Below, piece by piece: positions 55,349 to 61,341 of a DNA stretch of 64,000 bases. Both the position numbers and the translations under genes were made by a program. Each line of letters starts with the position of its first letter. Position 1 is the first letter of the stretch. Source of the stretch: Fimbriimonas ginsengisoli Gsoil 348. Lineage in GTDB: Bacteria; Armatimonadota; Fimbriimonadia; Fimbriimonadales; Fimbriimonadaceae. The notes under the pieces are model-generated. The model did not search any database, had not been told where the DNA came from, and saw only the letters and a list, made by a program, of their open reading frames with translations. The DNA lies in the NCBI RefSeq assembly GCF_000724625.1, contig NZ_CP007139.1, forward strand, positions 1,426,001-1,490,000, read 5' to 3'.

Positions 55349-55927
55349 ATGCGACGATTTACGGATGACGGAGAGTTGGAGCGGCTGCTCGAGCGATGCC
55401 GCCGGGGCGATCACTCGGCTTGGTCGCGACTGGTAGATCGATTTCAGGTGCTCGTGTACTCGGTGGCTCGCCGGTACGGTCTCGGGCAAGACGATGCCGC
55501 CGACGTTTTCCAAACCACGTTTCAGAACCTGGTGAAGTCGCTCGATCGCATCGAGTCGGGGCAGGCGTTGCCGCGCTGGCTGGCGGTTACCGCCAGCCGG
55601 GAGAGCTTGCGGATCCGCCGCATCAAAGGGCGAACAAGCGATTTCGACACAATCGGTCTAACGCTCGACGAAGTCGTGGCCAACGAAGAATGCGACGCCG
55701 AGCAAACATCGGTGGCGATGGATCAGGCGTACCGGCTACGGCAGGCGCTGGGTGAGATCACCGGGCGATGCCGGCAGCTTCTGGAGCTGCTTTATATGGA
55801 CGAAGCGCCGTACAACGAGATCTCGGAAAAGATGTCGATGCCGGTGGGAGCCATCGGCCCGACTCGGGGACGGTGTATGGAGAAGCTCAAGGCCGTCCTC
55901 GCTAAACAGGGATTTTTCGACGAGTAA
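55349..55927 (+). CDS. ECF-type RNA polymerase sigma factor
   Basis: A 192-residue sigma-70 family factor of the extracytoplasmic-function size. Region 2: LLERCRRGDHSAWSRLVDRF and LGQDDAADVFQTTFQNLVKSL. Region 4: LYMDEAPYNEISEKMSMPVGAIGPTRGRCMEKLKAVL, a HTH with PVGAIGPTR where many ECFs have GTVKSR. ATG 55349 is preferred; an upstream Met at 55328 lacks region 2 features. It heads the operon with the zinc-finger protein, CHAT protease and subtilase. Confidence 0.92.
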   Translation: MRRFTDDGELERLLERCRRGDHSAWSRLVDRFQVLVYSVARRYGLGQDDAADVFQTTFQNLVKSLDRIESGQALPRWLAVTASRESLRIRRIKGRTSDFDTIGLTLDEVVANEECDAEQTSVAMDQAYRLRQALGEITGRCRQLLELLYMDEAPYNEISEKMSMPVGAIGPTRGRCMEKLKAVLAKQGFFDE

Positions 55928-55974
55928 AGAATCTTGTATCAGACCGGATAGCTCCGGTCTCTTAACCCACGGCG

Positions 55975-56508
55975 ATGAAAGAATCCTGTCGAAACTATCG
56001 AAGCCTCCTGATGGACGCGGCCGAAGGGCGGCCGACTCCGGAGGTCACGCGGCACCTGGAAGAGTGCAAGTCGTGCTCAGCCGCGGTGGAGCGGTACCGG
56101 GAGATCGTCGCCGCCGCCAAGGTCGCCTGGACGCCGGCCCCCGCGGATCTGATCGCGCTGGTTAAAAACCTTATTCCCGAAACCCGAAGGGTTTGGACGG
56201 CAGCCCGGCTCGGCTCCTCGCTGGCCGCCGGCGCCCGCGGTCTTGGCGACGAGTTCCAAATGTCGGTCGGGGGCGGGGATCTATCGATCCGCATCATGGC
56301 GACCCGAAGCGAAGCGGGGTGGCAGTTGATGGGCCGGTTGCCCGAAGGAGAATGGAGCATCGACGCCGAGGTGCCGGCAGTGGTGGATGCCAACGGCTTC
56401 CGCTTCACCGTCGGCGCACTGGAAGAGTCCGGATTCAATTTGATCGGACCGGACCAAATCTTGGTCGTCCCCGCGATGTCGCAGTTGTTGGGCGATGACG
56501 GCCGCTGA
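55975..56508 (+). CDS. Zinc-finger (anti-sigma-like) protein
   Basis: A 177-residue protein. The N-terminus carries HLEECKSC, the HxxxCxxC zinc motif of ZAS anti-sigma factors, with Cys5 upstream. No membrane helix is seen, so it would be a soluble anti-sigma factor. The C-terminal 100 residues are beta-rich (VGGGDLSIRIMATRSEAGWQL, WSIDAEVPAVVDANGF, IGPDQILVVPA). It starts 48 bp after the sigma gene and overlaps the CHAT gene by 14 bp. Anti-sigma role is inferred from motif and gene order. Confidence 0.72.
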   Translation: MKESCRNYRSLLMDAAEGRPTPEVTRHLEECKSCSAAVERYREIVAAAKVAWTPAPADLIALVKNLIPETRRVWTAARLGSSLAAGARGLGDEFQMSVGGGDLSIRIMATRSEAGWQLMGRLPEGEWSIDAEVPAVVDANGFRFTVGALEESGFNLIGPDQILVVPAMSQLLGDDGR

Positions 56509-59116
56509 ACTCGCCGATCGATTAATCGCCGAACCAGCAGGCGCGAAGCGACTGCTGGTGGCCCAGGAAAACTACGCCGGGCTGAGCGAGGCGTTCTTCA
56601 CACGTGTGCTACGGCTATTCGCGGCCGACCACGGGAAGCTGGTGGGACTGCCCAAGGTTGCCCGGTTGGTCGTTCGGTACGGAGACGATCCCGCACTTGG
56701 TCATCGCTGCGTCGCCATCATCGATCGGGTCAAGGGGAGGTGGATTCCCAGCGCGGAGGCGTTTATTCGTGCCGGCGACAGCGCGACCCACCCTCGGGAC
56801 CAACTGGCGTTTAAGACCGGTGCGATCGACGGATTGGCGCGAGGGGGCCGGGTGCAGGAGGCGATCGCGCTCGGACAGTCGCTCATCGAAGGGTTGACCG
56901 CCGAACACGAAGACGGGCTCGCCGCCCGCGCTTCTCTGAACGTCGCCTACGCGCTGATGCAGCAGGACCGGTATCAAGAAGCTTGGCAAACCGTTTCGGG
57001 CCTGCCAGAAAGGCTCTTGTCGGCCGGTTATGAGACGGACGCCGCTTCGGCCCGCCTCGCGCAGTCGACCAGCCTGCTCTTTGGAGGCGATGTCTCCCAA
57101 GCCCGAGAGGCCGCGGAAAGGGCGGCTTCCGAGGCCGAGGCGCTGGGCCTCGACCAGTTGGCGAACATAGCTCGCGGGAATATAGCGTACGCCGACCTTT
57201 TGGCGGGCGACCCGGACCTTGCGATATCCGCTTTGGTCGAGCTTAGGGAGAAAAATGTCGACGCTCCCGTCGAGATGGCCCGCTCGCTCGAATACCTTGG
57301 CGACGCGTTCTCGGCAATGAACCTTTGGATTGAGGCGGTTGACGCCTACCGGGAGACGCTGGCGCTCGGCTCGGTTGTCCAGCCGCTCCACCAGGCGCAT
57401 CTACACCTCGGGATCGGGCAGACGCTGATGGCGTCGGGGCAAGCCGAGGCGGGGCTTGTGGAACTGGCGAAGGCCAGCCGCCGGTATTTGGCCCTCGGAA
57501 ACCGGGTCTGGCACGCCGCTGCCGAGACCGACCGGGCGGAAGCGGAACGGTTCCTTGGGAAGAAAATCGCCAAGCCGCGCATCGAATCTGCCGTTCGAGA
57601 GGCGCGCGAAGCGGGCAGCCCTTACCACCTTTGCCGGGCCCTTATCTCGTCCGCCTCCGGCGGCGGTCCAGACTCGCATCTCGACGAAGCCGCCGCGATC
57701 TTGCGGCGCAACGCGTTTCCCCGTCTGGTATGGCGCGTCCACGCGGAACGCGCTCGGCGGGCGACCGGCGCGGGGCGGCTCAAGCACCATCGCCGGATGC
57801 TCGCGGCGGTGATCGCCGAGCAAGCGCGGATTTCTTCGTACGCTGCCCGGCTGGGTCACCTAAGGGATAAGGCAGAAGCTCTGCGGACCTATCTCGATGA
57901 CCTGCTCGCCCATCCGACGCCAGCGCACGTCAAGGAAGCAATCGGGGTCGTCTCCCGGTCGCGCGCGGTGACGCTGCTCGACGAGCTTCTCCGCGGCCGT
58001 TCGACCGAACTCCCCCCGGAGGCGGCGGAACGGCTACGGGCTTTACGCGTGGAGCTGAACGAAGGAGAGAGTGACAATCCGACCCAAGGGACCCGCCGGC
58101 GCTCCGGAACGCACGACCGCCTCGACAGGATGCAAAGGAAATGGGTGGAGGAAACGATCTCGGTCGAGCGGTCGGCGACCCTCGCCGGGCTTCTTCCCGT
58201 TTCCGACAGTCTCGTTATGGTCGAAGGCTCGACCCGGTTAAGAGCCCTCACTACGAGCGGGGTGGTGGAGTTCGGGGATCCGGATCTAGCGGGGAAGCTG
58301 GAATGGTTGGCCTATGACCTGCTATCGCCGATGCTCGACCGAAAGGCCGATCCGATCCCCGCGATGGAAGGCCTAAGGCAGCTAGGGGAGACCCTTTTGC
58401 GCCCCTTGCTACGGCATGGTCCCGCGCTGGGCATCTGCCCCGAAGGAACGCTGTGGCGGGTGCCTTGGCTCGCCTGTCTCGACGCGATAGGGGCGGAAAG
58501 CGACCTCGAATTACGGATGCATCCTGGGCTACGCGGCAAAGATCCTAGTCCCGGCGGAAAGGGCGCGATGCTGTGGGTGGCGGAGCACCAAGACCTTCCC
58601 TGGGTGGGCGAGGAGGCGAAGATGTTCCTCCGCTACTTCCCCGGAGCGCAAGTATGCCGGACGGCCGAAGAAGCGCGAAAGGGGATGGTCAACGCCGATG
58701 TTTCGATTCTACACGTCATCTCGCACGCCCGCCATCGATGGCGTCACCCCATGTTCTCGTCGCTCGATTTCACAGACGGACCGGTTCTCGCCGCCGAGAT
58801 CGCACGGTCGGGACTGCGCGCGGAACTGGTGACGCTCTCAGGGTGCGACACCGGCCGGCTCTCCGATACCAATCACCACGAGCCAGACGGCTTAGTCCGG
58901 GCGTTCTTGGCCTGCGGCGCGGGATTCGTGGTGGGAAGCGCTTGGCCACTGGACGACGAAGCGGCCGTCCACCTATACCAATCATTTTATAATTCGATAT
59001 CGAAGGACTTAAACGTGCATGTTTCCTTGCGGAAAGCTCGCCAAGACGTTCAGAATTGGCAGAGTCACCCTTATTTTTGGGCCTCCCCCCTCCTATATGG
59101 GGGGTACAGATCATGA
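56495..59116 (+). CDS. TPR-CHAT caspase-like protease
   Basis: An 873-residue protein. Residues about 100-560 form helical TPR-like repeats (ARASLNVAYALMQQDRYQEAW, ALGLDQLANIARGNIAYADLL, QAHLHLGIGQTLMASGQ); 600-870 are a CHAT domain, a caspase/separase-like peptidase. The catalytic His744 lies in VSILHVISHARHRW and Cys784 in LVTLSGCDTG, both in family positions; FVVGSAWPLDDEAA and ALLYGG-like PLLYGGYRS close the domain. No signal peptide or membrane segment, so it acts in the cytoplasm. Start overlaps the zinc-finger gene by 14 bp, and its stop overlaps the subtilase ATG (ATGA). Substrate unknown; the neighbouring anti-sigma-like protein and subtilase are candidates. Confidence 0.92.
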   Translation: MTAAELADRLIAEPAGAKRLLVAQENYAGLSEAFFTRVLRLFAADHGKLVGLPKVARLVVRYGDDPALGHRCVAIIDRVKGRWIPSAEAFIRAGDSATHPRDQLAFKTGAIDGLARGGRVQEAIALGQSLIEGLTAEHEDGLAARASLNVAYALMQQDRYQEAWQTVSGLPERLLSAGYETDAASARLAQSTSLLFGGDVSQAREAAERAASEAEALGLDQLANIARGNIAYADLLAGDPDLAISALVELREKNVDAPVEMARSLEYLGDAFSAMNLWIEAVDAYRETLALGSVVQPLHQAHLHLGIGQTLMASGQAEAGLVELAKASRRYLALGNRVWHAAAETDRAEAERFLGKKIAKPRIESAVREAREAGSPYHLCRALISSASGGGPDSHLDEAAAILRRNAFPRLVWRVHAERARRATGAGRLKHHRRMLAAVIAEQARISSYAARLGHLRDKAEALRTYLDDLLAHPTPAHVKEAIGVVSRSRAVTLLDELLRGRSTELPPEAAERLRALRVELNEGESDNPTQGTRRRSGTHDRLDRMQRKWVEETISVERSATLAGLLPVSDSLVMVEGSTRLRALTTSGVVEFGDPDLAGKLEWLAYDLLSPMLDRKADPIPAMEGLRQLGETLLRPLLRHGPALGICPEGTLWRVPWLACLDAIGAESDLELRMHPGLRGKDPSPGGKGAMLWVAEHQDLPWVGEEAKMFLRYFPGAQVCRTAEEARKGMVNADVSILHVISHARHRWRHPMFSSLDFTDGPVLAAEIARSGLRAELVTLSGCDTGRLSDTNHHEPDGLVRAFLACGAGFVVGSAWPLDDEAAVHLYQSFYNSISKDLNVHVSLRKARQDVQNWQSHPYFWASPLLYGGYRS

Positions 59117-60333
59117 CCTCGACCGTTAACCGAATCTTCTTGCTCCTCGGCATTGCCGCGGCTCTCGTTCTCCCCACCCACGCGGCGGCAGAAAGCCTTC
59201 TGATCTGTCAGCTCACCGGGAAGGGAAGTGCCGCTGGGCTCGCTAAGAAGTACGGGGTCACGCTGAAGGACACCACCGACGGCGCGCCGTTTGCGCTCTT
59301 CTCCACCCCGACTCGGGCGATGGCCGACTCGGTTCACGCCTTGATGGCGCTGGACAAGGTCAACTTCGTTTGGGCGGAAGACGACGGGAGCGTCGGATGT
59401 CCGGAGGCGCAGTCGAAATCCACCCCCAGCAAGGGTGGCGGCCTGCCGGCCGTGGGAGACCGCAAGGCGCTTCAGGCGATCAACAAGAACCTTCTCGGGC
59501 AGATCAACTGGAGCCCGGCGCTGGCCAACCTCGACGGCCGCTCGGTGCGGGTAGCGGTGCTCGATAACGGCCTTTCGCCAAAGCAGCCGGCGCTTTGGGC
59601 AAAGGTCGACGCGAGCCTCAACGCGATCGAACCGGGCAAACCGGCTTACGACCAGCCGATGGGGGTCGATTCGAACAAGAACGGGAAGAAGGACGAGGCG
59701 CTAGGGCATGGAACGATGGTCGCCGGGATCATCGACCAGATCGCGCCGAAGACCAGGTTCGTCATCGCTCGAATCGCGGATAGCGACGGCAACGCCAGCG
59801 CATGGACTCTGATCAAGGGACTCGCATTCGCGGTCACTCAAAAAGCGGAGGTCGCAAACGTATCGCTGGGTTCGCTGGCTCAGGTCGTCGCTCTCACGGA
59901 CGCGATGGACTGGTGCGAGCAGAACCGCCTGCTCGTCGTGGCCGCGATCGGCAACGATGGCCTGCGAGCGGCTTGCTTCCCAGCCCGGATTAGCAAGGTT
60001 GTCTGCGTGAGCGGCGTCGACCAAGACAACCACAAGGCCTCGTTCAGCAATTGGGAAGGGACCGCCGACGCGGCGGCGCCCGCGACCGGTTTCGCAAGTC
60101 AGTTCTGGGACGGCAGCATCGCAGTGTGGAACGGCACTTCGTTTGCGGTGCCCGTGGTTACGGCCTCGATCGCCGATTGTCTGCGAAGGATTCCGGCAAA
60201 CACGCCGAGCACTATGCGAAAGGCGCTCACCTCGTCCGGCACCAAGATCGACGGACTGAATCCGAAGTACAAAGGGGAACTCGGGATGTTGGTCAACTAT
60301 ACGAAGCTCGATCAGGCGCTGCGTAAGCCGTAG
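59113..60333 (+). CDS. Secreted S8 subtilisin-like serine protease
   Basis: A 406-residue subtilase starting at ATG 59113 (ATGA with the CHAT stop). A signal peptide (RIFLLLGIAAALVLPTHAAA) leads to a short pro-region and the S8 domain. The triad is complete: Asp151 in AVLDNGLSP, His199 in GHGTMVAGII, Ser343 in NGTSFAVPVV. It has no C-terminal extension or cell-wall motif. It is probably periplasmic or secreted, in contrast to the cytoplasmic CHAT protein it is coupled to. Substrate unknown. Confidence 0.94.
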   Translation: MTSTVNRIFLLLGIAAALVLPTHAAAESLLICQLTGKGSAAGLAKKYGVTLKDTTDGAPFALFSTPTRAMADSVHALMALDKVNFVWAEDDGSVGCPEAQSKSTPSKGGGLPAVGDRKALQAINKNLLGQINWSPALANLDGRSVRVAVLDNGLSPKQPALWAKVDASLNAIEPGKPAYDQPMGVDSNKNGKKDEALGHGTMVAGIIDQIAPKTRFVIARIADSDGNASAWTLIKGLAFAVTQKAEVANVSLGSLAQVVALTDAMDWCEQNRLLVVAAIGNDGLRAACFPARISKVVCVSGVDQDNHKASFSNWEGTADAAAPATGFASQFWDGSIAVWNGTSFAVPVVTASIADCLRRIPANTPSTMRKALTSSGTKIDGLNPKYKGELGMLVNYTKLDQALRKP

Positions 60334-60873: not shown

Positions 60874-61341
60874 TCAGGGCCGATACGGACCCTTCACTTC
60901 GCCCCAGCCCCATTTGGGCATCGGGGCGGACTCATCCGCGGCGGCGCCGGGCTGGGAGTTAATGACGGCGAGGCGCGAACCCCACTCGAGGTAACCGACG
61001 AGGGCCGAGCGAAATTCCGGATCATCCGGCAGCGATAGCTCGTCGGCAGTCTCCAGCAAAAGGGTGACCCAGCGGCGACGTTGGCCTTGGCTCAAATGAC
61101 GGCCGAGGTGACTCCGCACCATATGCGGATGCCCGCCACGCTCCCGCGAGTACGCCGTCGGGCCGCCTAGCACCTCGGCCAAAAACGCGGCGACGTGCTT
61201 CGGATGCTCGCTGCTCATGTGGGCGAAGACCGGGGCGAGCAGAGCATCTTCGCGAACGTGTTCGTAAAATCTTTCCGCCAGGCGATTCAGCGCGTCGATA
61301 CCGCCCAGCCATTCATATAAAGTCGGGATCGGCTCGTCCAT
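60874..61341 (-). CDS. Group II-type truncated hemoglobin
   Basis: A 155-residue 2-on-2 globin (YjbI-like). The N-terminus TLYEWLGGIDALNRLAERFYEHV, AHMSSEHPKHVAAFLAEVLGGP and the proximal-His helix region HPHMVRSHLGRHLSQGQRRRWV (His, then Trp of G8 in RRWV) are family hallmarks. The last 20 residues after the globin core (PMPKWGWGEVKGPYRP) are a short tail of the kind seen in group II. Role in oxygen or nitric-oxide handling is known for the family, inferred here. Confidence 0.9.
   Translation of the reverse strand: MDEPIPTLYEWLGGIDALNRLAERFYEHVREDALLAPVFAHMSSEHPKHVAAFLAEVLGGPTAYSRERGGHPHMVRSHLGRHLSQGQRRRWVTLLLETADELSLPDDPEFRSALVGYLEWGSRLAVINSQPGAAADESAPMPKWGWGEVKGPYRP

Follow-up and report, generated by a model that had tools for sequence, protein, structure and literature searches.

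Caspase-like control of sigma factors is so far known from CRISPR side branches. In one of these, Csx29 cleaves Csx30, an inhibitor of CASP-sigma, within a flexible loop (PMC10028731); how this cut releases the sigma factor is not fully understood, and instability of the fragment is suspected (PMC10028731). In another, CalpL cuts the anti-sigma factor CalpT, and the resulting fragment stays on CalpS, presumably to be degraded afterwards (PMC11417357). Here we analyze a four-gene locus in a 64,000-nucleotide stretch of DNA from Fimbriimonas ginsengisoli Gsoil 348 (hereafter the window; contig NZ_CP007139.1, positions 1,426,001 to 1,490,000), whose genome is a single contig of 5.23 Mb. The locus encodes an extracytoplasmic function (ECF)–type sigma factor, a soluble two-domain anti-sigma-like protein that we call P2, a protease in which tetratricopeptide repeats (TPR) precede a CHAT caspase-like domain, and an exported subtilase of family S8. 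This cassette is a stand-alone, non-CRISPR variant of caspase/protease-sigma logic, fitting the logic of Csx29, CalpL, and the Myxococcus xanthus protein DdvA yet being none of them.

A Conserved Four-Gene Cassette

The four genes lie head to tail on the plus strand: the sigma factor gene at 55349-55927 (192 aa), P2 at 55975-56508 (177 aa), the TPR-CHAT gene at 56495-59116 (873 aa), and the S8 gene at 59113-60333 (406 aa). P2 and CHAT overlap by 14 bp and CHAT and S8 by 4 bp (ATGA), and 47 bp separate the sigma factor gene from P2. A first-pass annotation of this DNA had described the same layout with both overlaps, which the open reading frame (ORF) coordinates bear out, and had put the gap at 48 bp, one more than measured. 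Its identification of the first gene as an ECF sigma factor, and of two proteases with intact catalytic residues (His744 and Cys784 in the TPR-CHAT protein; Asp151, His199, and Ser343 in a secreted S8 protease), is likewise upheld by the matches and alignments described below.

The CHAT protein was used as a query against 100 related genomes, which yielded about two dozen full-length orthologs, and in nearly all of those not cut by a contig end the order was sigma>P2>CHAT>S8. In a wider survey, 84,980 species genomes were scanned and the recovered loci were then subjected to profile searches; since CHAT served to recover the loci, the survey would miss, beyond the relatives, any P2 or S8 sets that have no CHAT. 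The sigma/P2/TPR-CHAT/S8 set was found at about 70 loci belonging to no fewer than six phyla: Armatimonadota, Acidobacteriota, Chloroflexota, Actinomycetota, Planctomycetota, and Eisenbacteria. One Rubrivivax metagenome-assembled genome also carries the cassette, and a named actinomycetotal isolate, Rubrobacter taiwanensis, carries a relative (locus L082). Two orders dominate, sigma>P2>CHAT>S8 (39 loci) and sigma>CHAT>P2>S8 (11 loci), the latter being that of most Acidobacteriota cassettes. The first-pass annotation had proposed a survey of genomes for co-occurrence of the four families and would have given up its reading had their order not been conserved in relatives; the co-occurrence is widespread and the order is kept mainly in these two forms.

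When every neighboring ORF at 70 loci was clustered, the four cassette families were found in 70, 57, 57, and 49 loci, and the next family, a generic ABC transporter, in 13. A general fifth cassette gene was considered and rejected, as no further family recurs widely among the neighbors. Pairwise-distance correlations among the four families range from 0.72 to 0.84 against null maxima of 0.10 to 0.17; they partly reflect shared species history and thus speak for common inheritance, not for physical contact. Two other CHAT loci inspected in the F. ginsengisoli genome have neither P2 nor S8. The cassette is a conserved unit rather than a local accident.

Several variants of the cassette were seen. 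A second, diverged subfamily in the taxonomic order of Fimbriimonas has the arrangement sigma>CHAT>P2>S8, as in Acidobacteriota, and was confirmed at two loci, L169 (G013:C3:203500-212000) and L170 (G006:C4:656000-665500), with further members at G010:C5, G014:C3, and G040:C73; the arginine motif discussed below is present in both P2 proteins that were read (GMRS, GVRA). At nine loci (L078, L084, L085, and six others), acidobacterial among those examined, a gene for a family-5 solute-binding protein (SBP_bac_5; E value 2.3e-83 in L078) ends just upstream of the cassette sigma factor gene, and in eight of the nine it is preceded by a permease-like gene. The eisenbacterial locus L116 (374-7814) has two sigma/P2 pairs, one of them divergent, flanking a single CHAT and S8, and offers a natural case for studying sigma/anti-sigma specificity. 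At least two tandem S8 genes occur in L052, L087, and L096, which are cassettes or cassette-like, and in four Anaerolineae/Chloroflexota cassettes (L100, L103, L113, and L114) the sigma factor is diverged or missed by the cassette sigma profile. A further CHAT gene in the F. ginsengisoli genome (G000:C1:5106387-5107182, minus strand) is divided between two overlapping frames, perhaps through a frameshift. Plasmid-borne CHAT matches were rejected as cassette relatives, the three inspected sitting in other contexts, e.g., CATRA.

P2 Combines an Anti-Sigma Domain with an Invariant Arginine

P2 has no transmembrane helix. In its AlphaFold2 (AF2) model, built from 29 sequences with a predicted local distance difference test (pLDDT) score of 86, a helical N-terminal part (residues 3-66) is joined through a linker of low confidence (pLDDT of about 52 at residues 81-90) to a C-terminal β-sandwich (residues 93-165; 56251-56469). 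The closest fold to the helical part is the anti-sigma factor ChrR (2z2s_F; Z 7.0, root-mean-square deviation 2.7, 53 residues aligned), which places the P2 N terminus in the class I ChrR/RseA-like anti-sigma fold; the next match (Z 5.7) covers another domain. As a Z below 8 for a small helical domain calls for corroboration, the ChrR match was weighed together with two other observations: a P2 profile finds the anti-sigma factor RsiW (5wuq; E value 0.0058), and relatives of the domain are linked to sigma factor genes. Among 101 genomes, many other proteins match the N-terminal half of P2 only; of those fetched, 15 of 18 are encoded directly behind a sigma factor gene, and most are more hydrophobic in one stretch than P2 is, in keeping with membrane anti-sigma factors. 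Fold, profile, and gene linkage together support the N-terminal region (residues 1-54; 55975-56136) as an anti-sigma domain, and we infer that P2 binds the neighboring sigma factor. In the same 101 genomes, 34 of 35 full-length P2 genes adjoin a CHAT gene, the remaining one lying on a different contig in a fragmented assembly. The β-sandwich resembles immunoglobulin/appendage-like folds (Z 4-5.7), with weak CarboxypepD_reg matches in P2 relatives. Csx30 is absent among the fold matches of P2, which is not evidence either way.

The first-pass annotation had taken this protein for an anti-sigma-like HxxxCxxC protein of 177 aa. Its soluble nature and anti-sigma character stand, the latter by fold and linkage. 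The motif (H27, C31, and C34 in the window) was rejected as a defining feature of P2 because only about one-third of the cassette P2 proteins (24 of 69) keep it. A zf-HC2 match in the window P2 (E value 0.044, 14.3 bits) falls below the cut-off of 22.2 bits, and the match in a Chloroflexota relative exceeds it at 28.5 bits.

The most conserved position of P2 lies elsewhere. In an alignment of 69 cassette P2 proteins (with L135 shifted slightly in the alignment and two doubtful rows left out), Arg88 (codon 56236-56238) is kept in all 69, and the next best column reaches 0.90. The arginine stands in the context L-A-G-[AV]-R-[GS] within the flexible linker that joins the anti-sigma domain to the β-sandwich, and is followed by glycine (28 sequences), serine (27), or, counting alanine, by one of these three small residues in 61 of 69. 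An invariant arginine in a short linear motif, placed in the flexible linker of a protein that otherwise evolves rapidly, makes a concrete candidate for a protease site. From the alignment, we infer that P2 may be cleaved at Arg88 by CHAT, an idea that the invariance of this residue makes directly testable with one point mutant.

The TPR-CHAT Protease, the Sigma Factor, and the Subtilase

The CHAT domain (58373-59101) matches PF12770 with an E value of 1.8e-29 and 103.5 bits against a curated cut-off of 24, which assigns the protein to this peptidase family. His744 (58724-58726) and Cys784 (58844-58846) are invariant in all 69 cassette CHATs, as are Glu707, His740, and Trp817. The TPRs are below the Pfam cut-off, yet they are clear in a profile search and in the AF2 model (predicted template modeling score 0.87), where their helices form an α-solenoid at residues ~66-490 (56690-57964). 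The closest fold to this model is Csx29 (8eey_B; Z 30.3 over 537 residues), followed by separases (Z ~22-26) and DdvA (8rot_A; Z 21.6 over 587 residues), the deviations of these long-solenoid matches being large (3-14 Å). By sequence, too, the CHAT profile finds a type III-E TPR-CHAT (Csx29) as its best match in the PDB (5e-14).

The sigma factor matches Sigma70_r2 (1.9e-9) over the Pfam cut-off, with region 4 slightly under, and TIGR02937 with 73.3 bits (1.8e-20) against a cut-off of 42.9. It consists of sigma2 and sigma4 only, as in ECF-type sigma-70 factors, and carries the family signature GMPVGSIGPTRARCLEKLR in the alignment. The subtilase belongs to Peptidase_S8 (PF00082; 7.7e-26), and its triad of Asp151 (59563), His199 (59707), and Ser343 (60139) is invariant in 28 of 28 orthologs. 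Each of these 28 proteins has by inspection an N-terminal export signal, lipoprotein-like in two and at about 59113-59193 in the window, followed by a propeptide-like region. The constant linkage and the signal peptide suggest that S8 may serve as an output arm of the response.

A Candidate Protease-Gated Sigma Switch and Its Alternatives

The reading toward which these data lead us, with modest confidence, is a stand-alone protease-gated sigma switch in which activated CHAT would cut P2 at or near Arg88, leading to release of the sigma factor. The first-pass annotation had proposed from the gene layout that CHAT, triggered through its TPR part, cuts the anti-sigma-like protein to free the sigma factor, with the subtilase as a secreted arm; our data support this reading in part. 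The N-terminal domain of P2 would hold the neighboring ECF sigma factor inactive in the cytoplasm, and the TPR-CHAT protein, a caspase resembling separase and Csx29, would, by analogy with Csx29, remain inactive until its TPR solenoid receives a signal. Once activated, CHAT would cut the flexible linker of P2 at or next to Arg88, so that the anti-sigma domain would be detached from the β-sandwich, which is probably a docking module. The anti-sigma fragment might then be unstable or let go of the sigma factor, which would transcribe its regulon, and the co-expressed subtilase would presumably act as an envelope or extracellular arm.

Several observations weigh against such a switch. Separase reads arginine through an S1 aspartate, Asp2151 in Chaetomium (PMC10317155). 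The cassette CHATs have a conserved aspartate, Asp821, at Cys+37, which is common to CHATs generally. If the catalytic cysteine of Chaetomium separase is, as we take it to be, Cys2110, the separase aspartate lies at Cys+41, where sequence alignment places Val825 in the window CHAT, not a P1-Arg-binding aspartate. A P1-Arg specificity drawn from Asp821 was rejected on these grounds, and arginine specificity is unreadable from the protease sequence because the separase aspartate is not conserved at the aligned place. The anti-sigma bundle is not universal, since the P2 N terminus of the G100 cassettes is either short or degenerate (60 aa precede the arginine in L059). Autoregulation of the cassette through a shared promoter was also rejected: a search for a common −35/−10 pair upstream of 58 cassette sigma factor genes gave a best dyad at 5 loci, as against 3-4 in shuffled sequences, and no convincing motif, so that autoregulation is unsupported. 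Finally, the invariant Arg88 could instead be a docking, structural, or pseudosubstrate residue.

The last of these roles leads to a different arrangement, unlikely in our view, in which P2 is an inhibitor whose Arg88 loop occupies the CHAT active site, a sigma/P2/CHAT complex signals by binding, and freed CHAT cuts other proteins. An invariant arginine in a flexible linker would suit an inhibitory loop equally well, and there are precedents: the gingipain prodomain places Arg126 in the S1 pocket in a position unfavorable for cleavage (PMC4357240), and separase has a pseudosubstrate in securin (PMC10317155). That, contig break apart, every full-length P2 in the 101 genomes stands by a CHAT gene also fits. 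However, the small residue following the arginine in most P2 proteins resembles an ordinary P1′ residue, and the known CHAT/sigma precedent is cleavage. A quite improbable alternative is that the sigma/P2 pair only controls the cassette or other genes and that CHAT acts on other targets, such as the not yet exported S8 precursor or unrelated proteins. Co-regulation alone could account for the tight four-gene linkage, and S8 is nearly always present, but the operons lack a shared upstream promoter motif, contact of the exported S8 with a cytoplasmic CHAT would be brief, and both the adjacency of full-length P2 to CHAT and the invariant arginine are left unexplained. We give little credence to the TPR-CHAT protein acting without proteolysis within an anti-sigma complex, like the TPR-CHAT part built into DdvA (which its structure entry names a transmembrane anti-sigma factor and CHAT-domain protein, is among the fold matches of the CHAT model, and has a partner sigma factor, DdvS, that controls a defense island [PMC12288465]), as a scaffold would not need catalytic His and Cys residues that are invariant throughout the cassette CHATs.

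If the protease-gated switch is correct, it would provide one of the numerous uncharacterized CHAT proteases with a natural substrate and a cleavage site, and the cassette, being chromosomal and present in six or more phyla, would establish such control as a mainstream mode of bacterial signaling. More tentatively, the cassette may represent a general, CRISPR-independent caspase-to-sigma pathway in these phyla, in which an Arg-specific separase-like TPR-CHAT senses an internal signal, cuts a soluble anti-sigma factor at a universal arginine, frees the sigma factor, and deploys an exported subtilase, and may be the stock from which the Craspase relay was recruited; we regard this wider proposal as possible, though doubtful.

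Comparison with Known Systems

No CRISPR-like repeat was detected in the window between 48000 and 64000, and no cas-like family recurs next to the cassettes in the neighbor clustering of 70 loci, which did not include a genome-wide Cas7-11 search. Two genes past the cassette, an ORF on the minus strand (60874-61341) is truncated hemoglobin-like and unrelated to it. PADLOC returned no defense family for the sigma factor or P2 and only weak or generic matches otherwise (BovA, 0.0026, for CHAT; subtilase, 3.4e-17, for S8). We found no description of the cassette in the open-access PMC literature searched, which yielded only Csx29, CalpL, and DdvA as relevant; an earlier mention elsewhere is possible. 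The Csx29 model NF041237 scores the window CHAT at 19.4 bits, far below its cut-off of 300. In a phmmer search with a Csx29 fragment the top seven scores belong to cassette members, a ranking suggestive of Csx29 descending from the cassette, but the groups overlap and tree support is below 0.65; L103 and L100 score best against this fragment.

The cassette shares with Csx29/Csx30/CASP-sigma a TPR-CHAT protein with N-terminal helices, a TPR solenoid, and a separase-like double caspase region, together with a partner that inhibits an ECF sigma factor and is cleaved in a flexible loop, both as proposed here for P2. It differs in that Csx30 has 565 aa, whereas P2 is a 177-aa protein made of a ChrR-like anti-sigma domain and a β-sandwich, in the P1 residue (Met427 there, a candidate arginine here), and in the exported subtilase, which only the cassette possesses. 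The three-gene logic of CalpL/CalpT/CalpS of type III CRISPR is alike (PMC11417357), but the protease there, CalpL, is of the Lon-SAVED type and is activated by cyclic tetra-adenylate (cA4), and that system has no CHAT, TPR, or subtilase. The ChrR/RsiW-type zinc anti-sigma factors correspond to P2 in the fold of its N-terminal domain and in the position of the gene directly behind that of the sigma factor, whereas P2 often lacks the zinc motif, has no transmembrane part, and adds a β-sandwich and an invariant arginine linker. In M. xanthus DdvA/DdvS, a TPR-CHAT solenoid is likewise found in the anti-sigma factor of an ECF sigma factor (8rot; PMC12288465); DdvA, however, is a single transmembrane polypeptide, whereas the cassette encodes its anti-sigma factor and CHAT protease separately, with a P2 free of transmembrane helices and a subtilase added.
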